DNA of 45,995 nucleotides from positions 1 through 45,995 of the IMG/VR virus record IMGVR_UViG_3300046660_000282; one strand, given 5' to 3'. This stretch comes from a virus. The notes beneath the pieces were generated by a model. That model was not told where the DNA came from. It made no database searches and saw only the letters and a program-made list of their open reading frames with translations. Of the stretch, positions 3,068 to 30,300 are shown one piece after another. The position numbers were made by a program, and so were the translations under genes. Each line of letters begins with the position of its first letter. Position 1 is the stretch's first letter.

Positions 3068-3274
3068 TTACTCCTTAACGGGCTCGATTGAAAAGATTTC
3101 GGACATTGCGCCTTCATAGGCAAAAACGTCGAAATGGTCTGGATTGTCGCTATCCTCTTCAATGAACATATCAGAGAACATTGTGAGAATGAACGCCTTT
3201 GCCGCATCAACCGTTTCCACGGTCTTGAGCAGCTTTTTCGCGCCATTCGCGATTGTCTCGATTTTGTAGGCCAT
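3068..3274 (-). CDS. hypothetical acidic protein, 68 aa
   Basis: MAYKIETIANGAKKLLKTVETVDAAKAFILTMF..., then strongly acidic (IEEDSDNPDHFDVFAYEGAMSE). First gene after the promoter at 3291-3333; RBS AAGGGATTGAAGAA. The pattern beta, helix (VDAAKAF), beta is like many small phage proteins that end in a conserved strand. Unknown. Confidence 0.7.
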   Translation of the reverse strand: MAYKIETIANGAKKLLKTVETVDAAKAFILTMFSDMFIEEDSDNPDHFDVFAYEGAMSEIFSIEPVKE

Positions 3275-3290
3275 TTCTTCAATCCCTTGT

Positions 3291-3333
3291 TTGACTATGT
3301 AAGGATATTAAAATCATTTCCTTACATAGTCAA
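3291..3333 (-). promoter_or_regulatory. palindromic promoter variant (TTGACTATGTAAGGA)
   Basis: Arms at 3291-3305 and 3319-3333 are exact complements. Both differ from the other cassettes by C to T (ACTATG for ACCATG), a compensated change that keeps the symmetry. -35 TTGACT, 17 bp, -10 TAATAT. Confidence 0.85.
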
Positions 3334-3342
3334 TACCTTTTT

Positions 3343-3663
3343 TCACTTAAATTTCACTTTGACGCTATGCCAGCCAGCCTTAACGCTTACAACGCGTTTT
3401 CCAGCCGGAACAAACGTTGTGTTGCCTACCTGCTTAAACTTGCCATTCGACAAGCGTCGAATCACGTTGAACGGTTCAAAGCCTGTTACAGCGTTCCACG
3501 CGGTAAAGAATGCCGCATCTCTTGCAACGCTATCGCCACGCAAGTTTTCGCTTGTGGCATGAATGCACTTGCCATTGTGCCACAACGTAAACGCGTTAGT
3601 TTGCGTTTCGTAGCACTTAATTTCCACTCCCATTTTATAGCGGGAAAAAATAAGGTTCTGCAT
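3343..3663 (-). CDS. hypothetical beta-rich protein, 106 aa
   Basis: MQNLIFSRYKMGVEIKCYETQTNAFTLWHNGKC..., beta-rich throughout with a conserved-looking AWNAVTGFEPFNVIRRLSNG core and a basic end (SVKAGWHSVKVKFK). RBS AAGGAGCTAAGCCA. A shorter start at MGVEIKC (residue 11) is possible. Four bases downstream of the 3668 gene, hence one operon. Function unknown. Confidence 0.7.
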   Translation of the reverse strand: MQNLIFSRYKMGVEIKCYETQTNAFTLWHNGKCIHATSENLRGDSVARDAAFFTAWNAVTGFEPFNVIRRLSNGKFKQVGNTTFVPAGKRVVSVKAGWHSVKVKFK

Positions 3664-3948: not shown

Positions 3949-4128
3949 TTAGTTGTTTCGTTCAGCTTCGATTGCTTCCATTGCCTCACGAATAACGCGA
4001 GTCATGTCGGAAAAATCGCCGTGGTTTTCGATGAAAGTAATGGCCCACTCTTTCAGTGAAGGGGAAATGATTCCCAACTCAGTCAAGACCATTTTTTCCT
4101 TCAAAGCCTTTGTTTCTGCGTTTGCCAT
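3949..4128 (-). CDS. hypothetical helical protein, 59 aa
   Basis: Start MANAETKALKEKM with AAAGGAAATACGGAA upstream; the extension MVNKGNTE is the common promoter leader being read through. Helix-rich, with LKEWAITFIENHGDFSDMTRVIREAMEAIEAE, which could be a short two-helix bundle. Sole gene between the palindromic promoter 4145-4187 and the 3918 hairpin. Confidence 0.7.
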   Translation of the reverse strand: MANAETKALKEKMVLTELGIISPSLKEWAITFIENHGDFSDMTRVIREAMEAIEAERNN

Positions 4129-4144
4129 TTCCGTATTTCCTTTG

Positions 4145-4187
4145 TTGACCATGTAAGGAACTTAAACGCTTTTCCTTACATGGTCAA
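4145..4187 (-). promoter_or_regulatory. palindromic promoter, 16-bp perfect arms
   Basis: TTGACCATGTAAGGAA (4145-4160) and its complement (4172-4187). -35 TTGACC, 17 bp, -10 TAAGTT on the minus strand. Confidence 0.85.
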
Positions 4188-4203
4188 TAGGCTTTTTAAA
4201 AAA

Positions 4204-4542
4204 TTACCATCTTTCGCCAGTAAGCCAAACTTTGAAGTTTTCAGGGAATTTCAAACCATAGGGCAAATCTTTGTTTGCGCGGCAGAACCTGTTATGGAGT
4301 GCAGGCTTTTCGCTATGCATCCATTTTTTGAAATCTTGATATTCCGGCAAAGCCGCATACATATCGTTTATCTTGTCGCGGTTATGGCAATAAACATAAC
4401 CGCCAAACGGTTGTGCCGTAACGCCTAATGCAGACATGCTGGCGACATAAGTGCGATATTCAGAAAAGAGCGGATGCGACTCATCTGCTTTAGTCGTAAC
4501 AGGCTGAATCGGAGCCATGGCGGCGCGTGACATATCAAACAT
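4204..4542 (-). CDS. hypothetical protein, 112 aa
   Basis: Start MFDMSRAAMAPIQPV, RBS AAAGGAACTAAGCAG. Pro-rich start, then aromatic-rich middle (FSEYRTYVASMSALGVTAQPFGGYVYCHNRDK) and a Trp/Phe-rich C-terminus (FPENFKVWLTGERW). It looks like a compact globular protein. Monocistronic under the promoter at 4559-4601. Unknown. Confidence 0.7.
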   Translation of the reverse strand: MFDMSRAAMAPIQPVTTKADESHPLFSEYRTYVASMSALGVTAQPFGGYVYCHNRDKINDMYAALPEYQDFKKWMHSEKPALHNRFCRANKDLPYGLKFPENFKVWLTGERW

Positions 4543-4558
4543 CTGCTTAGTTCCTTTG

Positions 4559-4601
4559 TTGACCATGTAAGGAAGATATGACTCTTTCCTTACATGGTCA
4601 A
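4559..4601 (-). promoter_or_regulatory. palindromic promoter, 16-bp perfect arms
   Basis: TTGACCATGTAAGGAA (4559-4574) and its complement (4586-4601). -35 TTGACC, 17 bp, -10 TATCTT. The leader down to the start codon (TTGACCATGTAAGGAA... AAAGGAACTAAGCAGATG) recurs in sister cassettes. Confidence 0.85.
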
Positions 4602-4609
4602 TAGGCTTT

Positions 4610-4894
4610 TTAAATTTTATTCAGCGCCAAGCGCAAATCATACGTGCGCTTGATATCTGCTCTAATCGCTGCAATCGTCTCAGCGCTAAGACCGTCAACA
4701 ATCATGAACGGTTCAACGATATTAGCGCCGCTCAAGTTTTGAACCGTGATAATCACGCCGCTAGCCATATACTTATCGGTATTGGCCTTTCCGATATCCC
4801 TGTTAGCACTTGCCAGCGTTCCTATATCATGCGCCTTGGATTGCAACAAATCTTTCGCGAGTTGCGCGGTGCGGGAAAGTTTCTTTGCAGTCAT
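4610..4894 (-). CDS. hypothetical protein, 94 aa
   Basis: MTAKKLSRTAQLAKDLLQSKAHDIG... has a basic helical N-terminus, a short beta segment (GVIITVQNLSGANIV), and a final helix (AETIAAIRADIKRTYDLRLALNKI). The ATG overlaps the stop of the 4894 gene (shared base), so translation is coupled. Unknown. Confidence 0.7.
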   Translation of the reverse strand: MTAKKLSRTAQLAKDLLQSKAHDIGTLASANRDIGKANTDKYMASGVIITVQNLSGANIVEPFMIVDGLSAETIAAIRADIKRTYDLRLALNKI

Positions 4895-5148: not shown

Positions 5149-5499
5149 TCACATAGCCACTTTGATAATAGTTGCGTCTTCAAAGCAAGCCCGGTAAAGC
5201 TGACCGCGAGTCACGCCTATCATGCGATAAGTTGAAAGCTTGCGAGTAGAACCGGGAACGGGAACGCCGCAAATCAATGCGCCGGTCTCAGTCCCTTCTA
5301 TCACATCGCCTTCAATGTCAAAGACGTTATATGTGACTCGCATGCCGCCGCGTTCAGGATGAAACTCTTTTTCCACAGTCACGGCGCGTTCCACAATGTT
5401 TGTTAGAACCATTGTGCCGCGTGCATATGGCTGCATATCAAACTTGACGGTTTTTCCAGTCATGTTATGCGCGAAAGATTCGTTTAGAAAAGAAGGCAT
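5149..5499 (-). CDS. hypothetical beta-rich protein, 116 aa
   Basis: Start MPSFLNESFAHNMTGK (RBS AAGGGATTAAGCAA); the MVKQGIKQ extension is leader. Alternating strands (TVKFDMQPYARGTMVLTNI, VTYNVFDIEGDVIEGTETGALICGVPV) suggest a beta-barrel or OB-like fold. The C-terminal half (KLSTYRMIGVTRGQLYRACFE) is mixed. First gene of its unit. Unknown. Confidence 0.7.
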   Translation of the reverse strand: MPSFLNESFAHNMTGKTVKFDMQPYARGTMVLTNIVERAVTVEKEFHPERGGMRVTYNVFDIEGDVIEGTETGALICGVPVPGSTRKLSTYRMIGVTRGQLYRACFEDATIIKVAM

Positions 5500-5515
5500 T
5501 TGCTTAATCCCTTGT

Positions 5516-5558
5516 TTGACCATGTAAGGAACTTAAACGCTTTTCCTTACATGGTCAA
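5516..5558 (-). promoter_or_regulatory. palindromic promoter, 16-bp perfect arms
   Basis: TTGACCATGTAAGGAA (5516-5531) and its complement (5543-5558). -35 TTGACC, 17 bp, -10 TAAGTT. Confidence 0.85.
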
Positions 5559-5593
5559 GCGTCCTTTCTCACAATTATGTGAAAAAGAACATT

Positions 5594-6181
5594 TTAAAAA
5601 CTAATTTCGCAGTAAACGAAACCGTCTTCATCGTACCATGTACTTGCCTCATGATAGCGGGCAATTTCGCTTAGCTTGTCGCCCAATGAAACAAGCTTTT
5701 TGCGTTCTGCTGGCGTTGCATCCCATTTAGGATTTCCGCGATTTTCAATCATGAGCGATGTTAACCGCTCATATTCTTCTTGATCGCTTCCGAATAGATC
5801 AAGTTGCTTGCGGTCCCAATAACCCACGCCGTGGCCTTGTGACGTGAACCACAAGTCACGACCGGCTTGCTCCGAATCATAATCCTCGCGTTCATAGGCT
5901 TGTTCAAGCAAATCCTTTGCCGCCGTTTCAAAGGCTTGGCAGAACGCAACAATTGTGGCAAGCGAATCAGGATGCAATTCCGCGAATCCTACATCACTTG
6001 GCAAATTACCGTCAATTTGCCCCTCTTCCAAAGCATGTTGATTTTCATCCGAAAACCAATCATCTGAATCAACGCGATTGGCGCAGTCCGTGAAAAACAT
6101 AGCTTCGATAAAGCCTTGCACGAAATAAGGCAACGCCTTGAATTCCGGCTTGTGCTTTCCATTCATCTGAAATTCTGGCAT
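5594..6181 (-). CDS. phage protein with WFTSQGHGVGYWDR motif, 195 aa
   Basis: Residues about 110-125 (LWFTSQGHGVGYWDRKQL) correspond to the FWLTRNGHGAGFWDR signature of a widespread phage family of unknown function, normally followed by a GDKLSE-type segment and an acidic aromatic C-terminus. Both are seen here (SLGDKLSEIARYHEAS, WYDEDGFVYCEI). The N-terminal part (FVQGFIEAMFFTDC) is also typical. Full length for the family, with an insertion between the two motifs. Driven by the promoter at 6210-6238. Family assignment is from memory of the motif. Confidence 0.75.
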   Translation of the reverse strand: MPEFQMNGKHKPEFKALPYFVQGFIEAMFFTDCANRVDSDDWFSDENQHALEEGQIDGNLPSDVGFAELHPDSLATIVAFCQAFETAAKDLLEQAYEREDYDSEQAGRDLWFTSQGHGVGYWDRKQLDLFGSDQEEYERLTSLMIENRGNPKWDATPAERKKLVSLGDKLSEIARYHEASTWYDEDGFVYCEISF

Positions 6182-6260: not shown

Positions 6261-6320
6261 CCACTTTTTGTTCCACATATGTTCCGTTTTAAAAATATTG
6301 CAGCCTCGCCGTTCCCATCC
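6261..6320 (-). repeat. copy 1 of a three-copy non-coding element
   Basis: Minus strand: GGATGGGAACGGCGA, then TTTTTAAAACGGAACA, then GGAACAAAAA. The same order of blocks occurs on the plus strand at 9485-9520 (partial) and 10516-10570. It lies between a promoter and a terminator, in a stretch without a gene. A tiny ORF ATG-GGA-ACG-GCG (MGTARLQYF) is embedded and ends in TTTTTAA. Confidence 0.7.
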
Positions 6321-9302: not shown

Positions 9303-9339
9303 GGCCTTAGCTCCAATGTGAAGGCGTTTCGATACACGC

Positions 9340-9368
9340 AACATAGATGTAAGAAAATATCGTGTCAA
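9340..9368 (-). promoter_or_regulatory. promoter with TTTTCTTACATC box
   Basis: Minus strand TTGACA, 17 bp, TATGTT, with TTTTCTTACATC directly before the -10. Divergent from the plus-strand promoter at 9404. Confidence 0.8.
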
Positions 9369-9377
9369 GTGAGAATT

Positions 9378-9409
9378 TTTATAAAATTAAATTATTTTCC
9401 CTATTGACT
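9378..9409 (+). repeat. 32-bp direct repeat, copy A (also 10415-10446)
   Basis: An AT-rich 21-mer (TTTATAAAATTAAATTATTT plus one T), two variable bases and CTATTGACT recur exactly 1,037 bp downstream. The repeat carries the -35 of a plus-strand promoter in both places. Confidence 0.85.
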
Positions 9410-9432
9410 TCGATAGTGGAATCACTTAAATT
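9404..9432 (+). promoter_or_regulatory. plus-strand promoter without a long ORF downstream
   Basis: TTGACT, 17 bp, TAAATT. A transcript would run from about 9439 into the strong hairpin at 9525-9551. Confidence 0.65.
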
Positions 9433-9438
9433 AAAACT

Positions 9439-9552
9439 ACATCAAAGAGAGCGGTAGCGGTAGCGAAGCGGGAGGTGGGGAGAATGAGGGATGGAATTTT
9501 TTTAAAACGGAACAAAACGAGAATAAGCCGCCGCTACATTAGCGGCGGCTTT
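9439..9552 (+). ncRNA. candidate short transcript (copy 2 of the three-copy element)
   Basis: Lies between a plus-strand promoter and a strong terminator, antisense to nothing but the last codons of the 9556 gene. Contains GCGGTAGCGGTAGCGAAGCGG, GGATGGAA and TTTTTTTAAAACGGAACAAAAC, blocks shared with the elements at 6261 and 10516. It holds a possible 28-codon ORF at 9484 (GGAGG eight bases upstream) that reads into the terminator. Existence of the RNA is inferred. Confidence 0.45.
9525..9551. terminator. bidirectional terminator hairpin
   Basis: AAGCCGCCGCT-ACATT-AGCGGCGGCTT, an 11-bp GC-rich perfect stem just after the stop of the gene at 9556. The minus-strand continuation ATTCTCGTTTTG has a weak U-run, the plus strand TTTAGG. 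Confidence 0.75.
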
Positions 9553-9555
9553 AGG

Positions 9556-9777
9556 TTAAAGTTTAGATAATAATTTCTCTGCTATCGCCAAGGCTTGGCC
9601 GGGCGACACTTCATAATTGCCGGAAAAATCCATGCAATTATTTTTGAATATGTCAAAGATTTTTTGTTTCTTAACATATTCAAGCGCCGCGCTTTGAGTG
9701 TTAAACGAATCTTGGAATCTGTCGCCAGACATGACAATCCAAGAACCTTTTCCGTTATACTCTACTGAGTAATCCAT
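9556..9777 (-). CDS. hypothetical protein, 73 aa
   Basis: Start MDYSVEYNGKGSWIVMSGDRF; the ATG follows the stop of the 9779 gene by one base. Strands (SWIVMSGD) then helix (SAALEYVKKQKIFDIFKN) and a C-terminal helix (GQALAIAEKLLSKL). Alpha/beta small protein of unknown role; last gene before the terminator at 9525. Confidence 0.7.
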   Translation of the reverse strand: MDYSVEYNGKGSWIVMSGDRFQDSFNTQSAALEYVKKQKIFDIFKNNCMDFSGNYEVSPGQALAIAEKLLSKL

Positions 9778-9778
9778 G

Positions 9779-9997
9779 CTATTCCACCTTTGCAATCAAG
9801 CCGTCGCGCATAGTGACCTTTGCGAAAAATTCCCTGCCGCCAATTTGCGGATTGATTGCCGGTCTATGCGCCACAACAAAAGAGCCGGTCGCCTTGTATT
9901 CCTCGCCAAACATAGACGTTTCGCGATACTTGAGCGGCTTTCCAGTCGCCTCTTTAAGCTCTTTCTTGCTCTTATAACCTGTAACCAAAAGTGTCAT
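9779..9997 (-). CDS. hypothetical protein, 72 aa
   Basis: Start MTLLVTGYKSKKELKEATGKPLKY. The strand, KSKKELKEATGKPL helix, and C-terminal REFFAKVTMRDGLIAKVE form a pattern (FFAxVTMxDGxIxKV) that I recall in small hypothetical proteins of alphaproteobacterial phages. RBS AAAGGAGCTAACGAC. First gene after the promoter 10055-10083. Unknown role. Confidence 0.72.
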   Translation of the reverse strand: MTLLVTGYKSKKELKEATGKPLKYRETSMFGEEYKATGSFVVAHRPAINPQIGGREFFAKVTMRDGLIAKVE

Positions 9998-10020
9998 GTC
10001 GTTAGCTCCTTTGTTAACTA

Positions 10021-10083
10021 CGCTCAAGTTGTCTTGAGCGTTGTTTGATAAGTCACCTTAGATGTAAGGAAACGTTTCGTCAA
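10021..10083 (-). promoter_or_regulatory. promoter with TTTCCTTACATC box plus leader hairpin
   Basis: Minus strand TTGACG (10078-10083), 17 bp, TAAGGT (10055-10060), box directly before the -10. The leader forms CGCTCAA-GACAAC-TTGAGCG (10021-10040) before the RBS. Confidence 0.75.
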
Positions 10084-10092
10084 GCGGTTTAA

Positions 10093-10350
10093 TCAGTTAC
10101 TATTTGAAATTTCCAGAGCCTCCATCTCCAATTCATTATAGAGCTTGTTAAGCATGGCTTGCCGCTCATTATAAATTTGCATATCGGCATAGAGTCGCAC
10201 CATGTCGCCCAAATAATCGCGGCCATGCGGGCGCAATTCAGACATTGCCTCAATAGCCTTAAGCATGTAAGCGCGGGCGTCAAGTCTAGCTTGAACGTGA
10301 GACTCACGCGTTGCGCCATTGATATTAATGATGGGTTTCATGTAAGCCAT
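10093..10350 (-). CDS. hypothetical helical protein, 85 aa
   Basis: MAYMKPIININGATRESHVQARLDARAYMLKAIEAMSELRPHGRDYL... After a short strand and an INGxTRE turn, the protein is two helices with HGRDYLGDMVRLYADMQIYNERQAML between. I have seen the INGxS....Q.......L..A...L....PHGRDYQ pattern in several phages; function is not known. RBS AAAGGAGCAAGGCGC. Monocistronic under the 10378 promoter. Confidence 0.78.
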   Translation of the reverse strand: MAYMKPIININGATRESHVQARLDARAYMLKAIEAMSELRPHGRDYLGDMVRLYADMQIYNERQAMLNKLYNELEMEALEISNSN

Positions 10351-10377
10351 GCGCCTTGCTCCTTTGTTGATGCAGTG

Positions 10378-10406
10378 ATCTTAGATGTAAGGAAAAGGAA
10401 GGTCAA
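10378..10406 (-). promoter_or_regulatory. promoter with TTTTCCTTACATC box
   Basis: Minus strand TTGACC, 17 bp, TAAGAT; the box lies directly before the -10. Divergent from the plus-strand promoter at 10441. Confidence 0.8.
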
Positions 10407-10414
10407 CAAAAATC

Positions 10415-10446
10415 TTTATAAAATTAAATTATTTTGTCTATTGACT
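10415..10446 (+). repeat. 32-bp direct repeat, copy B
   Basis: Same AT-rich block and CTATTGACT as 9378-9409; only the two bases between them differ (GT for CC). Confidence 0.85.
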
Positions 10447-10469
10447 ACATATCAGAATCAGCATATTCT
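10441..10469 (+). promoter_or_regulatory. plus-strand promoter reading into the repeat island
   Basis: TTGACT, 17 bp, TATTCT. The transcript would cross the 10516 element, the GGAACA array and possibly the 22-codon ORF at 10892. Confidence 0.65.
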
Positions 10470-10515
10470 AAAAACAATTCAAAGACGCCGCAAAAGCCCG
10501 AAGGGCGAGGCCGAG

Positions 10516-10570
10516 GATGGGAACGGCGAACCTGCCCGCTTTTTAAAACGGAACAAAAGGGGAACAAACC
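10516..10570 (+). repeat. copy 3 of the three-copy element
   Basis: GGATGGGAACGGCGA, then TTTTTAAAACGGAACAAAAG. The first block is identical to that at 6306-6320 on the minus strand. The embedded ATG-GGA-ACG-GCG reading frame (MGTANLPAF) ends in the TTTTTAA block as at 6261. Confidence 0.75.
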
Positions 10571-10693
10571 GTGAACAGGAACAAAACGGGAACAAAGATA
10601 TAACATATAGGGAACAAAACTGTAACAAAAGGTGAACAGCGGAACAAACCGTGAACAAAACGGGAACACGGCAATGTTCACGGTTTGTTCCCC
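10549..10693 (+). repeat. array of about 12 GGAACAAA-type short repeats with a 19-bp inverted repeat
   Basis: Units such as GGAACAAAAC, GGGAACAAACC and GTGAACAAAAC follow each other every 10-12 bp, about one helical turn. GGGGAACAAACCGTGAACA at 10559-10577 recurs exactly inverted at 10675-10693 and nearly (CGGAACAAACCGTGAACA) at 10640-10657. Such phased short repeats are typical of protein-loading sites at origins or partition sites. Confidence 0.85.
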
Positions 10694-10697
10694 TTGA

Positions 10698-10739
10698 TTT
10701 TTAAAAAATTTTGAAATAATTTTAAATAAAATTGAAACG
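10698..10739. other. AT-rich stretch next to the repeat array
   Basis: Forty bases with almost only A and T between the GGAACA array and a 12-bp palindrome CTGGCGCGCCAG (10740-10751). A possible DNA-unwinding element. Confidence 0.55.
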
Positions 10740-10760
10740 CTGGCGCGCCAGAAATTGGGA

Positions 10761-10850
10761 TTTCTCGTGTCAAAAAATGGGAGTCTGTGATGAAGGAAAA
10801 ATGGGACAGCGTGATAAAAAAATTACGAGTCTGTGATGAATGAAAAAACC
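10761..10850 (+). repeat. four tandem 22-24-bp repeats (iteron-like)
   Basis: Units at 10761-10782, 10783-10806, 10807-10828 and 10829-10850. Units 2 and 4 share GTCTGTGATGAA then GAAAAA; units 1 and 3 are looser (CTCGTG-TCAAAAAATGGGA, CAGCGTGATAAAAAAA). Period and number match iterons of plasmid-type replication origins. Confidence 0.7.
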
Positions 10851-10911
10851 GGCTCTCTCGATCCTCACGTTGCGATAAGGAGGATCGCGTCATGGGAGAG
10901 ATGAGCCGGTT
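10847..10911 (+). promoter_or_regulatory. leader stem-loop covering a Shine-Dalgarno
   Basis: AACCGGCTC (10847-10855) pairs with GAGCCGGTT (10903-10911) and CGATCCTC (10859-10866) with GAGGATCG (10880-10887). The inner helix hides the AAGGAGG that serves the ATG at 10892. Confidence 0.7.
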
Positions 10912-10960
10912 CTTAGCAGCGTTTGGTAAAGAGGTTGAAACCAAACGCTGTTTCTCGTGA
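10892..10960 (+). CDS. 22-aa peptide ORF with near-ideal RBS
   Basis: MGEMSRFLAAFGKEVETKRCFS, with AAGGAGG eight bases before the ATG. The coding region also contains a second perfect hairpin, CAGCGTTTGGT/ACCAAACGCTG (10917-10950), so a ribosome translating the ORF would melt it. This is the arrangement of a leader peptide that controls a downstream structure by attenuation or coupling. No long ORF follows on the plus strand, which makes its role unclear. Confidence 0.55.
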   Translation: MGEMSRFLAAFGKEVETKRCFS

Positions 10961-11236
10961 TAGATATTAAAACTGGTGCCACGTTCTAAGTGTATGCAGA
11001 GAAAGAGGTTACAAATCCAACATAGCAGGGCTTTAACCTGCGCACCATATTGTGACTAGACTAGCTTAGGCTGGTTTTCAGAGACCATTTGGCGAGCCTC
11101 CTGATCACTTTAGCAACAACCTTGTTGTGGTAAACCACATCTTTAAAAGAGGCTACTCGTCTGCCCGCGTCTCACTGACACGGTCTAAAGATTCGCTTCG
11201 TCACGGTTACTGTGATACAGACACTAAATGATTCTG
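10961..11236. other. 276-bp structured non-coding stretch
   Basis: No ORF is credible. Local pairings include GGTGC...GCACC (10976/11040) enclosing about 70 nt with an internal GCAGG/CCTGC arm, AGGCT...AGCCT and ACAACCTTGTTGT (11117-11129). On the minus strand the 10976-11044 part has the size and an anticodon-like loop (TTTGTAA) of a tRNA, but no canonical T-loop. It could be the structured tail of a plus-strand RNA. Confidence 0.4.
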
Positions 11237-11452
11237 TCAAGCATTCATTTTCGAAACGCGTCTCACTTGGAATTCAGGATCGTTTACCGTCTCGCCACTG
11301 AGCCGAACCGCGACACGTCGCACGGTGCAATGCTCAGCGCCGGGATACTCCTTGAAGAAGTCCTGCGTTGCCTGTTTGATCTCACGGTGCGGCTTGGTTA
11401 CCCTGATTGCGCCCTTTGCGATACCGAACGCGACATATTTGTTGTAAATCAT
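11237..11452 (-). CDS. hypothetical basic protein, 71 aa
   Basis: MIYNKYVAFGIAKGAIRVTKPHREIKQATQDFFKEYPGAEHCTVRRVAVRLSGET... Strand, helix (REIKQATQDFFKEY), strands. RBS AGGGAGAACAAAAG. Net basic. Second gene after 11481-11693, ending directly at the non-coding island. Unknown. Confidence 0.7.
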   Translation of the reverse strand: MIYNKYVAFGIAKGAIRVTKPHREIKQATQDFFKEYPGAEHCTVRRVAVRLSGETVNDPEFQVRRVSKMNA

Positions 11453-20881: not shown

Positions 20882-22624
20882 TTACGTGGCGCTGGAGGTT
20901 TCTGCTTCGGCTTGCTCATTTTTAAGTTTCTCCCTTGCTAAACGTTTCTGCTCCATCTCAGCCTGAATCGCTCTTTCGACCATATCTTTTTTTACTTGGG
21001 AAGAAGGCGAAGAGCCTGATCCATGTAATTTTTGCGTTCCTAATTTTCTCTGTCTGCCTCTGGCCCACTCTAAATATTGACTGGTACTATCAACCATGTC
21101 GTCATTCTTACCATAAGGGAAGGCCATTAGCTCACGTTCGTATTCTGCGAGCCATGTTGCAGCTTCAGGAAGATAGACCATACCTGATTCTATGGTTGGG
21201 GCTACTGCATCGAACCTGAATTCCTTAGAGTTATTATCTGTGCTGATAGGAATGATCGGGATATTGGTTTTTCCTTGGCGCACTTGAATGTACTGTGTTC
21301 CAGAACCTTTATCTTCGATCAGAATGCATGACACGTTCCAGCGCTGCGCCGTCTCATCAACTAGCTTGCACATTTCGGGGAATTCAACTTTAGCTCTGAT
21401 GCAATCTAAGAGATAATGCAAGCCGAATTCAGTCTCTAACCAAACCGTAATAGCGGTAAAGTCGTGACGCTCTTGAGCCTTCTGCGCCGTATCGACTGAC
21501 ATAGTGATACGACGTGTTTTGATTTCAGGATTTTTCCTTACATCGCCTTTATAACGATTGAACCACGAAGATTTTAAGAGAACGCCTTCAGCGTCTACCG
21601 GAACGCCTTGCATCATAGAGCCCCACATTGCTCCTGTGAGCGTGGCGCGCTTGTTTAGGTAATCCTGATGGTAAAAGTCCCACAACGGCATGTCAGGCTC
21701 TGTGCGGCCCATAGGATCGTCTTCATCACCAAGCTCCGACAATGCTTTCAGGTTGATGATTTCGTAAGGGATAATATTTCCCTTTTTACCTTCAGTCTCA
21801 AGCCTGCCGATCATGTCGTCAGAGTTATAACGCGTGTTGACTAGAACGATTGGGGCGCGGGGCAGAAGTCGGGTCTGAAAGTCTGACAGGAACCATGAAT
21901 AAGCATCATCTCTGACTTTAGGATTCTGTGCCTCAAGATAGCTTGCATACAAGTCATCGATGCAGCCAATATTCGCTCTGATACCCATGATACCAGCGCC
22001 GACGCCACGAGCCACATATTCAGATTTGTTCGTCAATGCCCAACGATCACCGGCTCTCATGTCAGATTGAAGTGCGACCTCGCCAAACACTTCCTTAAAT
22101 GCTTCGCTGTTTACATATGCCTTAGTCTTTTTACCAAGTTCGCTTGTTGCGAATGATGCGGCATAACTGGCCTGTAACCATTTAGTCTTTCTGCGGCCCA
22201 TGCACCAAACAGCAAAGCGACGGGAAGAGTATTCGCTCTTACCGCCGCCAGCCGGAACGCTGAGTGCTAGTCTAGGGATCGTGCCGTTTTCTACCAGTTC
22301 AAGTTTTTCGCAAATGAAATGATGGTGAGGCGCGGGTGGCTCATCCATATTCAGATACTCAGCGAAACAAGAATAGCTATTAAAACTTGCGCTTCTCAGC
22401 TTCTCTTTGTATTCGTTTTCGTAATGCTCTAAAACATCTTGAACCGCTGCATATTGGTTCTCAGGTATCGCGGTCTTCGTCAGACTCAAAATTGCTGATG
22501 ACAAGTGTGTCGGGATCGGGGATTTCAATCGCAAATGGTCTTGAAGAACTTCCTCCATCCTGCGAAGATTCGTGATTGATGACCTGTATACTAATCGGTC
22601 GTTCCATGTTAGGGTATTTGTCAT
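20882..22624 (-). CDS. terL: terminase large subunit
   Basis: DNA-packaging ATPase-nuclease that pumps phage DNA into the prohead. ATPase: Walker A-like VPAGGGKSEYSSR (about 122-134; GGGKS, a deviant form common in phages), Walker B IGCIDDLYAS (about 216-225), coupling motif VLVNTRYNSDDMIGR. Nuclease: SVDTAQK, ILIEDKGSG, and FPYGKNDDMVDSTSQYLEW, giving the three acidic positions of the RNase H-like fold. Full length about 580. The proposed ATG lies 164 bp inside the small-subunit gene and lacks a clear RBS; the ATG at 22558 or an inner TTG near 22520 is possible. The order small-large is standard. Confidence 0.95.
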   Translation of the reverse strand: MTNTLTWNDRLVYRSSITNLRRMEEVLQDHLRLKSPIPTHLSSAILSLTKTAIPENQYAAVQDVLEHYENEYKEKLRSASFNSYSCFAEYLNMDEPPAPHHHFICEKLELVENGTIPRLALSVPAGGGKSEYSSRRFAVWCMGRRKTKWLQASYAASFATSELGKKTKAYVNSEAFKEVFGEVALQSDMRAGDRWALTNKSEYVARGVGAGIMGIRANIGCIDDLYASYLEAQNPKVRDDAYSWFLSDFQTRLLPRAPIVLVNTRYNSDDMIGRLETEGKKGNIIPYEIINLKALSELGDEDDPMGRTEPDMPLWDFYHQDYLNKRATLTGAMWGSMMQGVPVDAEGVLLKSSWFNRYKGDVRKNPEIKTRRITMSVDTAQKAQERHDFTAITVWLETEFGLHYLLDCIRAKVEFPEMCKLVDETAQRWNVSCILIEDKGSGTQYIQVRQGKTNIPIIPISTDNNSKEFRFDAVAPTIESGMVYLPEAATWLAEYERELMAFPYGKNDDMVDSTSQYLEWARGRQRKLGTQKLHGSGSSPSSQVKKDMVERAIQAEMEQKRLAREKLKNEQAEAETSSAT

Positions 22625-26061: not shown

Positions 26062-26748
26062 TTAAATGGTGTATGGCACCCTGTCGCGGAAGCCGTTTTC
26101 TGATTTACATTGATTGATATAAGCATACACTTTATTAAATCTTTCGAAGGAAACATCCTCCAAACTAGGATCATACCTAAGAGCCGCGTCAATCAGTTCA
26201 ATATTCTCAGCCGCAAATTCATCTCTGCCGCAGAGGCAATCGGGGATGCGGGCGTTATCAATCGCGATACGCGGCACGCCCAATGCTTCACAAATCTCAA
26301 GGATTGTGGACTTGTAAAGGGTCTGGATCGGCTGAAGCGAAACGGCGGTGCTAAGCAGGCTGTACTTACCAAGCGCTTTCTCAGTCGCGTTCATGGTGCC
26401 CACGGTCCAGCAATTGAATTTCTTTGCTTCTTCGTGTAGTCTGGCCCAACGGTTTTCATCGTTGTAACGCTCTAGGTAATAAGGAACAGCTAAGGTTGAA
26501 TAATTATCGTGGAGCCACGGTAAAATTCGACACGCGAACCAGCCAAGAAATGGTACTTGTTTAACGAAATTTATGCCGTATACCTTATGAGAAATTCCGA
26601 GTCGCTCCGCAGCTTTGTAGCAAAGGATATATGCAACGATGCTATCAGTCCCGCTCAGCCCTATCATGAAGCCGGGAACCGGGGTTTGGGAGCGTTCCAT
26701 CTTATAGACCAAGCGATCCACGAGGGCGTCAAATTTGGGGTGAATCAT
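26062..26748 (-). CDS. nadE-like: NAD synthetase-like PP-loop ATP pyrophosphatase, 228 aa
   Basis: NadE makes NAD from deamido-NAD, ATP and ammonia. MIGLSGTDSIVAYILCYKAAERLG (residues about 28-50) is the PP-loop (SGxxDS) with the GTDS form. WTVGTMNATEKALGKYSLLSTAVSLQPIQTLYKSTILEICEALGVP (about 114-160) parallels NadE GTxNxSExxLGYFTxxGDxxxDxxPIxxLYKTQVxxLxxxLGVP, and the C-terminus has a GRDEFAAENIELIDAAL stretch like DExxLGxxYxxID. It lacks a glutaminase domain, so ammonia-dependent. The GD pair before the Pro is replaced (STAVSLQPI), so specificity could differ. Phage NAD genes counter NAD-depleting defences such as Thoeris. Confidence 0.83.
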   Translation of the reverse strand: MIHPKFDALVDRLVYKMERSQTPVPGFMIGLSGTDSIVAYILCYKAAERLGISHKVYGINFVKQVPFLGWFACRILPWLHDNYSTLAVPYYLERYNDENRWARLHEEAKKFNCWTVGTMNATEKALGKYSLLSTAVSLQPIQTLYKSTILEICEALGVPRIAIDNARIPDCLCGRDEFAAENIELIDAALRYDPSLEDVSFERFNKVYAYINQCKSENGFRDRVPYTI

Positions 26749-28156: not shown

Positions 28157-28416
28157 GCCCCCCTAACGGGGGCGACCATTAGGCATAGGATTATTTATCG
28201 GGAGACCATCGTTCCGTTTGACGCAAGGTTGACATTAGACATTATTTTATTCGGAGCATTTGCTGACCTGTGTCACAACGTCCCTCCATTTTTAATGGAA
28301 GGACGTTAACGCCCTCGCTCCGCTACCGCTATTCTGTGTGTCACACCGGGTTCGAAAAACGTTCCATTACTTCTAAGTTTAATAGCCTTTTCTTTTTCTA
28401 AAAATTCTTGTCAAAG
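28157..28416. other. non-coding, with hairpins
   Basis: CCCCCTAACGGGGG (about 28159-28172), and AACGTCC-C-TCCATT-TTT-AATGGA-A-GGACGTT (28277-28307), a 14-bp stem with one mismatch. The 28308-28332 part read on the minus strand (AGCGGTAGCGGAGCGAGGGCG) resembles 9451-9478. No ORF. Confidence 0.55.
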
Positions 28417-28705
28417 TTCTTGGGAAAGTGTAGGAGTTAACTCGATTGTTGTCTTATATTATTTAATAAAAACAATAAGATAAGTAAGTTAATAATATAA
28501 AATAGAGAGTCAAAGTAAGAGTAATTGAGAAAAACAGAAAAAACACAGTCAGAAAAATATCAAAAATTTTCACACATTGCAAAATGCCCTGTTTTCAAAT
28601 CTCTCAATAATCCTTACTTTTACGCTTATTTTCACATAGTATCTTATTGAAATCATTAGGAAAATGTACTTAAAAATCGAGTTAACAACAACGCTTTCCC
28701 AAGAA
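28417..28705. repeat. large imperfect palindrome (inverted block repeat)
   Basis: 31-bp arms 28417-28447 and 28675-28705 share TTCTTGGGAAAG and GTTAACTCGATT in inverted orientation. Moving inwards, CAATAAGATA is found at the same distance on each side, and then AGTAAG-(8)-TTGAGA. About 230 bp of AT-rich sequence lies between the outer arms. Further GTTAAC sites are at 28305 and about 28734. Either a divergent control region or a replication origin. Confidence 0.8.
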
Positions 28706-28747
28706 TGTTGAATCGCCAGAAAAATGCTGCTAGCGTTAACTCAAGGC

Positions 28748-28776
28748 TTGACAAATCGATTTAAGTGTGTTAAGCT
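28748..28776 (+). promoter_or_regulatory. promoter of the zinc-finger/pentapeptide pair
   Basis: TTGACA, 17 bp, TAAGCT, just after a GTTAACTC (28734-28741) that may be an operator half-site. Confidence 0.75.
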
Positions 28777-28808
28777 TCGTTTTTAATTATGAAATTAAGA
28801 GTAATACC

Positions 28809-29726
28809 ATGACAAGAATTAAGCACGAATTACGCTGTGTCGCGCCGGGATGTGGCAACATTTTCCTTGCCTCCAAACTCAACAAAGAGACTTGCAGCAC
28901 CAAGTGTCACATGCGACTCAAGCGTCACAGGACCGAGCCGCGCGCCACAAAATCAGTCTGCCTCTTCCCAAAATGTCAAGAAGTAATTTCGACAAAGACG
29001 GCGCGTGGCAGGCCTAAACTATATTGTTGCGACGACCACATGAAGCGTCATTACTACAATAAGAATTTTGGCATGTCTCACGAAGATAGAGACGCGATTT
29101 GCCCCAATCCCTATTGTGACGTGAAAAATTTCGTCAAGCATCACGGAAGGCAAATTTATTGCACCGATGATTGCAGGAAAGAACACGCCAAGATCAAAAA
29201 TCTCCCCTCCACGACGGAAGAGCCAAAAAAGCTTCCTCATCTCATGCTATGCAATTATTGTGGCACTGAGTATAGATCGGCCCGCACCTCGTCTCAGTTC
29301 TGCGGCACGTCTTGCCGCGTCATGTTCTACAATCAAAATAGAATGGCTGAGTGGGTCCATAAGAGGCGGACCTATGCCGAAGAAGATTATATGGAAGACA
29401 TTTTAGATGGAGAAGTCTATATCGAATGTGAATTCAATGACGTGGATTTTTCCGGCAAGAGTATGTCAAAGGTGAAATTCATTAATTGCGTCATTAATAA
29501 TTGCTGCTTCGATAAGACCTTCTTCGACGGTGTTGAACTGATTGATACTGATTTCGAAGGTCATAACACTTTTAAAGGCGCGATGATTCGCTTCACCAAG
29601 TTCCCCGGTCTAGTTGAAGAAATCCTTGACCTCAGAGGGGCTATCACGTCTACCTTGAAACGCCGCGCCGTGTTAGCCATGCATCGAGACAAATTAGAAG
29701 CAAGAAAGATGAGCTATTATGAATAA
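28809..29726 (+). CDS. four zinc-knuckle protein with pentapeptide-like tail, 305 aa
   Basis: Start MTRIKHELRCVAPGC (AAGAG upstream; an earlier start would precede the transcription start). Four Cys-rich modules: CVAPGC...CSTKC, CLFPKCQ...CCDDH, CPNPYCD...CTDDC, CNYCGTEY...CGTSC (to about residue 178), each a Cx3-4C-x(15-22)-Cx2-3C/H zinc site as in nucleic-acid-binding fingers. After a linker, VYIECEFNDVDFSGKSMSKVKFINCVINNCCFDKTFFDGVELIDTDFEGH (about 200-250) reads as pentapeptide-like repeats (A/C-x-F/L-x-x). This fusion is unusual. DNA or RNA binding likely. Confidence 0.8.
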   Translation: MTRIKHELRCVAPGCGNIFLASKLNKETCSTKCHMRLKRHRTEPRATKSVCLFPKCQEVISTKTARGRPKLYCCDDHMKRHYYNKNFGMSHEDRDAICPNPYCDVKNFVKHHGRQIYCTDDCRKEHAKIKNLPSTTEEPKKLPHLMLCNYCGTEYRSARTSSQFCGTSCRVMFYNQNRMAEWVHKRRTYAEEDYMEDILDGEVYIECEFNDVDFSGKSMSKVKFINCVINNCCFDKTFFDGVELIDTDFEGHNTFKGAMIRFTKFPGLVEEILDLRGAITSTLKRRAVLAMHRDKLEARKMSYYE

Positions 29727-30300
29727 GTATCAAGTCCTATGCGGTAACGAATACCTTAAAACGGGGCAGGTGGTCCAGCCCCATACCATCACGAACCGTG
29801 GCGCGTTTATCGTTGATTGTGACATTGTTGTCACAATGAGGAGCTTAAGACTATTAAGCGAAGGCGATAAATTATGGTCCGTGAGCCAATGTTTGACCGA
29901 GTTTTATAGTAATTGGAATCTTAGATCACTCCTAGACTATGCCAAGTACAGCACCATAGATGGCGAAGACTTGACCAGAACTCGTCAACACGATGTGAGG
30001 ATGAAAGGTGTAATCTATAATAATTGTAACCTGAATGATGTATCGTTCCACGGCGGAACATTGAACAAAGTCGTGTTTCTCAACTGCGACATTGATATTC
30101 TTGACCTGAGACATGCCGCCCTTATCGATGTCCTGTTCCTACATTGCAACAAGACTTATGGCATTAAATTAGACAACGTAAAACCGAGGCGGGTCATCTT
30201 TAAAAAGACCAGCCACCCTAAAGATTTAAAAAGTTTAGGTTTTACCATGGTAAAAAATGAGTCACAAGATTATTTCTGGCTCAAGAAGGAATACCGATAA
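29719..30300 (+). CDS. pentapeptide-repeat-like protein, 193 aa
   Basis: MNKYQVLCGNEYLKTG... begins with a beta/helix cap. Residues about 95-145 (VIYNNCNLNDVSFHGGTLNKVVFLNCDIDILDLRHAALIDVLFLHCN) resemble the tail of the upstream protein (FxNCxxxxxxFxxxxLxxVxFxNC). It lacks the zinc fingers. The ATG overlaps the previous stop by 8 bp, so the two are cotranslated and perhaps form a complex. The gene converges on and overlaps the 30270 gene by 31 bp. Confidence 0.75.
   Translation: MNKYQVLCGNEYLKTGQVVQPHTITNRGAFIVDCDIVVTMRSLRLLSEGDKLWSVSQCLTEFYSNWNLRSLLDYAKYSTIDGEDLTRTRQHDVRMKGVIYNNCNLNDVSFHGGTLNKVVFLNCDIDILDLRHAALIDVLFLHCNKTYGIKLDNVKPRRVIFKKTSHPKDLKSLGFTMVKNESQDYFWLKKEYR

Follow-up and report, generated by a model that had tools for sequence, protein, structure and literature searches.

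A non-coding island in the genome of a phage, probably one that infects an alphaproteobacterium, carries a long array of GAAC repeats. The array is best read, with a probability of about 0.57, as a cluster of LexA operators (GAAC-N7-GAAC) that would control a promoter and possibly titrate LexA. That it is a conserved array loaded with protein is well supported by sequence comparison, since its cores are conserved relative to its spacers and the array has been kept in two independent relatives. It resembles a host switch taken over by the phage more than it does an established origin of replication.

The DNA analysed is IMG/VR record IMGVR_UViG_3300046660_000282 (the whole stretch of 45,995 bases, hereafter 'the window'). 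The island sits among small minus-strand genes, a run of which stops near 13.8 kb. The genes around the array are small orphans, and a 220-aa neighbour protein used as a query retrieved no relatives. The original prediction, that of a phage replication origin, had placed its elements in a 1.6-kb span without a long plus-strand gene. Three small genes do lie there on the minus strand, and the part that is properly non-coding is the island 10351-11236 (Table 1).

A search with the terminase retrieved seven more IMG/VR contigs, two of them of about 120 kb. By terminase (~41% identity), the nearest named phages, of ~150 kb and ~130 kb, have Ruegeria, Phaeobacter, Sphingobium, Rhodobacter, Erythrobacter and Citromicrobium as hosts. 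Most of these matches come from Alphaproteobacteria phages; one phage assigned to Microcystis is close as well. This points, across the distance of these terminase relatives, to an alphaproteobacterium as the probable host. The named relatives are without the array, which counts against the LexA reading. The island DNA gave only short unrelated matches to named phages, the array by itself matched nothing of use among named phages and plasmids under a low-complexity filter, and a search of Rfam yielded no credible family.

Table 1. Features of the island and its surroundings (window coordinates unless a relative is named)
Feature	Position	Strand	Remarks
Non-coding island, conserved	10351..11236		between minus-strand genes 10093-10350 and 11237-11452
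Island copies in relatives	G005:98788-99505; G002:21623-22302; G004:19751-20430		
ORFs with ribosome site	9556-9780, 9779-9998, 10093-10350	-	9779-9998 kept in both relatives
Large terminase gene	20882-22624		
Third partial module copy	6262..6320	-	exact box GAACATATGTGGAAC at 6270-6284
Paralogous module	9331..9551		minus-strand promoter 9368-9340; plus-strand promoter 9404-9432; hairpin terminator 9525-9551
Box in module	9510-9524		complete as GAACAAAACAAGAAC in G002/G004
Promoter-like TTGACT-N17-TATTCT	10441..10469	+	hexamers and spacing kept, spacer diverged
GC-rich block with hairpin, ends CTTTTT	10496..10540		covarying GCCC/GGGC to GCGC/GCGC; 88-98% identical in relatives
Array, 12 GAAC/TAAC half-sites	10551..10667	+	GAAC-N7-GAAC boxes: five exact, four in which one unit is TAAC
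Plus-strand half-site starts	10551, 10562, 10573, 10579, 10590, 10601 (TAAC), 10612, 10623 (TAAC), 10634, 10642, 10653, 10664	+	
Minus-strand half-site starts	10676/10687	-	
Exact GAAC-N7-GAAC box, inverted	10676..10690	-	still a box in G005 (GAACAAAACCAGAAC); inverted-repeat pairing gone there
Candidate promoter within array	10597..10626	-	GTTACA-N18-TATATC, extended -10 TGT
AT-rich block	10697..10738		one G in 10697-10734
Palindrome CTGGCGCGCCAG	10740..10751		relatives read CTCGCGCGCCAG and CTGGCGTGCCAA
Three imperfect 22-24-bp repeats	10772..10847	+	GTGATGAA-GGAAAAA type
Long hairpin then T6	10843..10911	-	outer stem paired 9/9, 8/9, 9/9
Second hairpin	10915..10952	-	compensatory changes: CAGCG/CGCTG, CAACG/CGTTG, CAGCA/TGCTG
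Candidate promoter	11205..11239	-	-35 TTGACA and adjacent bases invariant; -10 poorly conserved

Of the original description, about 12 units spaced 10-12 bp with a 19-bp inverted copy, both parts hold. There are 12 half-sites, far above chance and mostly exactly 11 bp apart, the exceptions being steps of 6 bp (10573 to 10579) and 8 bp (10634 to 10642), and the inverted copy is perfect over 21 nt (10557-10577 / 10675-10695). The unit GGAACAAA occurs 14 times in the window against 2.1 expected, a count reached in none of 100 shuffles, and half of these copies (7/14) fall within 10550-10691; GGTGAACAG has only a single copy. Exact GAAC-N7-GAAC boxes number 10 in the window, compared with 1.4 expected, and six of them lie in the array.

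A search for the repeat units in related phages, proposed with the original prediction, bears the array out: the island is present at 81-86% identity in G002, its near twin G004, and G005, and the array is kept in two independent relatives. Across the window, G002 and G005, only 2 of 56 positions vary in the half-site cores versus 28 of 84 in the spacers (Fisher P = 1.3e-5), a test on three independent sequences in which TAAC counted as a half-site. Open frames do cross the array (for example, 10445-10681 on the minus strand). The variable array positions follow no codon rhythm, however, so these frames do not account for the conservation. The inverted copy is unpaired in G005, yet it is an exact GAAC-N7-GAAC box, which indicates that selection acts on the box and not on a hairpin. 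Boxes also occur singly in G007, a more distant relative, but they lie inside coding frames and were left out as evidence for that reason.

The window, G002 and G005 agree at every base of 10590-10606 and 10612-10627, the longest invariant stretches, which cover two units with TAAC in each of the three phages. These two half-sites fall in the two hexamers of the candidate minus-strand promoter within the array, where the opposite strand of the TAAC units gives GTTACA and TGTTATATC, separated by 18 bp. The match to consensus is weak (8/12), and a promoter buried in the array at 10597-10626 is suggestive only. The main array overlaps no strong consensus promoter. Consensus promoters were not in excess at arrays in general, but the pattern used misses rhizobial sites as well, and the comparison is uninformative.

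The geometry of the boxes matches a known host operator. GTTC-N7-GTTC, which is GAAC-N7-GAAC on the other strand, is the published LexA operator of the alphaproteobacterial SOS response (PMC3323433, PMC9578287, PMC12700426). The two share the half-site, the 11-bp direct repeat and often an AAA after GAAC. The box was found upstream of lexA in all six alphaproteobacterial genomes examined, recA in one locus (L193) has a GAAC triple at 11 bp just upstream (GAACAAAACAAGAACAAAATAAGAAC), and many rhizobial promoters have such a triple after TTGACA. What sets the array apart from ordinary LexA control is its size, because ~97% of Caulobacter SOS promoters have a single box (PMC12700426), whereas here about ten overlapping boxes stand in a row, with an inverted one beside them. 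No S24-type repressor encoded by the phage was found in the related contigs. In rhizobia, a conserved promoter with TTGACA and then three GAAC units (L170, L180, L182, L204, L227 and about 20 other loci) precedes a small ORF starting MTDLVQDV/MTDFIRDV, which is probably an SOS gene.

We infer LexA as the bound protein, activity of the embedded promoter and a role for titration. LexA dimers would fill adjacent boxes of the array, and bound LexA would block the promoter inside it and perhaps also rightward transcription from the promoter at 10441. LexA would leave either through RecA-driven cleavage after DNA damage or through dilution over rising phage copies, at about ten boxes per genome, and its loss would open the island region.

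Similar arrays occur in other viral contigs. A scan for three GAAC-type units at 11 bp gave at least 120 triples, compared with 84 at 12 bp (mostly coding), 35 at 10 bp and 51 for a scrambled motif. This raw count is weak evidence by itself, and it is the extension statistics that carry the argument. In 96 non-redundant viral arrays among the matches listed, a spacing of 11 bp accounted for 59 cases of GAACA outside the selecting triple (next 8) and, on the opposite strand, where spacing had not been selected, for 56 (next 3). An opposite-strand 11-bp pair was present in 25 of these 96 listed arrays versus 1 of 47 for the scrambled motif, and was lacking in the 10-bp and 12-bp controls. About 1.0 Mb of viral array loci among the matches listed contain 588 boxes against 28 expected, an excess that is partly by construction because the loci were chosen for arrays.

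The viral arrays are mostly non-coding, often occupy both strands, and come from dozens of contigs of uncultured phages, whose terminases belong to three or more unrelated families. That 11-bp arrays occur with several unrelated terminases is better explained by a host protein common to these phages than by a single phage initiator. Against the LexA reading, one large-array group has a terminase nearest to Vibrio phages. It is a tentative further step, and a rather doubtful one, that many unrelated Alphaproteobacteria phages independently built LexA sponges in the form of arrays of 3-15 SOS boxes. Such boxes, multiplied by phage copies, would strip LexA off the host chromosome, or the LexA level would serve as a sensor of damage and copy number, in parallel with the CtrA-site clusters known from such phages.

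Some viral GAAC arrays have parS-like sites (TGTTTCACGTGAAACA type) inside or beside them (L101, at the array centre, L091, L115, L029 and L040), as though several DNA-binding proteins of the host had had their sites brought together there. A TGTTGCAAAATTGTCACACTGTTGC repeat adjoins the array in L023, L064, L075 and L084. Genome matches in Clostridia, Bacteroidetes and Oligoflexia were set aside as in-frame repeats within genes. Those with 11-bp GAACAAA repeats in an Oligoflexia MAG and Clostridia MAGs (L169:6247-7656, L187:863-1648, L235:2378-3379) may be true iterons in coding sequence.

The alternative that survives best, although it too is unlikely, is the replication origin itself. A phage initiator, such as a DUF5906 SF3-like primase-helicase, would bind the GAAC sites as iterons, the AT block would unwind and forks would leave. 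In its favour, an almost invariant AT block adjoins the array, with 44/45 and 41/45 positions of 10696-10740 identical in the relatives (98% and 91%); the predicted 40-bp AT-only stretch is indeed AT-rich (10697-10734), but not AT-only, as it holds one G. The island thus has the form of an iteron origin, array then AT block, but this pattern is not general among other arrays, whose AT-rich flanks barely exceed background. Contigs mostly have one cluster, and many arrays are head-to-head. In three small phages (G015, G017 and G018), the array and the skew minimum are within ~0.3-1.3 kb of each other, at gene-direction divergence. Cumulative GC skew, proposed as a check, does have a local minimum near the array, at a distance of 2.3 kb in the window and of 2.0 kb in G005, but the skew follows the coding strand and its switch coincides with the coding-strand switch, so it cannot decide. 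G005 encodes an SF3-like helicase, but this DUF5906 gene is 72 kb off and no initiator gene adjoins the array. The identical motif in phages with several unrelated terminases also speaks against an origin. A LexA-controlled divergent control region would occupy the same place.

Origins of the lambda type combine iterons of ~19 bp, an AT-rich stretch and a palindrome. The island likewise has repeats and then an AT stretch, but its units are of 11 bp, no initiator gene is found around them and the palindrome is not conserved: the predicted 12-bp palindrome is present in the window, but the readings of the relatives show that it has not been kept as one. The tandem 22-24-bp repeats exist, although as three imperfect copies and not four (67-87% alike mutually; 63% and 80% identity in the relatives), and these supposed 22-bp iterons are of poor quality and adjoin a terminator and a hairpin that covaries. 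The type I iterons of P4 ori/crr, reached by using as a query a short stretch of P4 alpha protein, are closer. They too have a GAACA core, in several copies and both orientations with AT-rich surroundings, and P4 alpha iterons (TGTTCACC) are in part 9-11 bp apart. However, P4 units (GGTGAACA) are irregularly spaced and always GTGAACA-like, whereas the base preceding GAAC varies freely in the arrays, and no P4-type alpha gene adjoins the island. On spacing and flank, P4-type iterons are rejected here. Of the predicted origin, then, the conserved repeat array stands, on its cores and its two relatives, and the step from array to origin is the less probable part.

It is improbable that another regulator, phage- or host-encoded and with the same GAAC-N7-GAAC geometry, for example a repressor of late or early phage genes, binds the array. 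The evidence for such a protein comes from the paralogous modules. The predicted 32-bp direct repeat pair with plus-strand promoters was recovered as 36 nt at 92% identity (9374-9409 / 10411-10446), each copy ending in a promoter-like TTGACT-N17-TAAATT/TATTCT. The pair is part of a longer module (9331-9530 / 10369-10571), and the copies at 9331-9530 and 6262-6320 each keep a nearby -35/-10 site and one box. The box of the third, partial copy is identical in G005 (103985-103999) and is followed 31 bp downstream by the TTGACG -35 of gene 5594-6181. Single boxes recur beside module promoters (6270, 9510), but unrelated phages would need identical specificity. The proteins scanned include no candidate, although small orphan proteins are abundant.

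It is very unlikely that transcript structure, as an RNA element or terminator, and not protein binding is what the inverted GAAC repeats and the hairpins serve. The array strand does fold strongly (z -4.1), the two downstream hairpins fold together with z -5.1, and the second of them covaries, but the unpaired inverted copy of G005 remains a box. The RNA reading holds for 10843-10952, where the long hairpin is a probable intrinsic terminator of leftward transcription, and not for the array. A chance or coding repeat is suggested by the open frames and by the GAACAAA repeats within genes of other bacteria, but has a negligible likelihood given the shuffles, the conservation in two relatives and changes without codon periodicity.

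Other features of these genomes were observed in passing. A second intergenic repeat family (window 1194-1262/1570-1639, 2396-2489, 3270-3381, 4115-4232, 4540-4621 and 5489-5577) has members 70-98% alike, partly self-inverted, between small minus-strand genes, and possibly represents shared early promoters or leaders. A 300-bp region of the window, 28411-28711, is imperfectly self-inverted (~65%) and immediately precedes pentapeptide-repeat genes (28767-30300). G005 carries an NAD-salvage set (L288-L293: NAPRTase/NAMPT, NMN transporter, nucleotidyltransferase-Nudix), alongside RIIA/RIIB, DNA and RNA ligases and a tyrosine-recombinase-family protein; in the window, 26062-26748 is NAD synthase-like.

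The LexA operator reading has precedents. Known cases of phages using host LexA are a few promoters that carry one box or two. In GIL01 of Bacillus, a phage promoter is under host LexA (PMC4551915); the two boxes of this temperate phage are palindromes, as is typical of Gram-positive LexA, in contrast to the long direct-repeat array described here. A close precedent is provided by the CtrA-site clusters in phages of Alphaproteobacteria, for which binding and regulation were shown by Mascolo et al. 2022 (PMC9437464). These also gather dense host-regulator sites in a large intergenic region and arose independently in several Alphaproteobacteria phage lineages, but the regulator is a different one. 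A CtrA-site cluster was rejected for the island itself, as TTAA-N7-TTAA occurs 0 times in the window. If the array were an origin, it would define an 11-bp iteron class across phage families, undescribed as far as found. If the LexA array is true, sensing or titration of LexA would be a common strategy in phages of Alphaproteobacteria.
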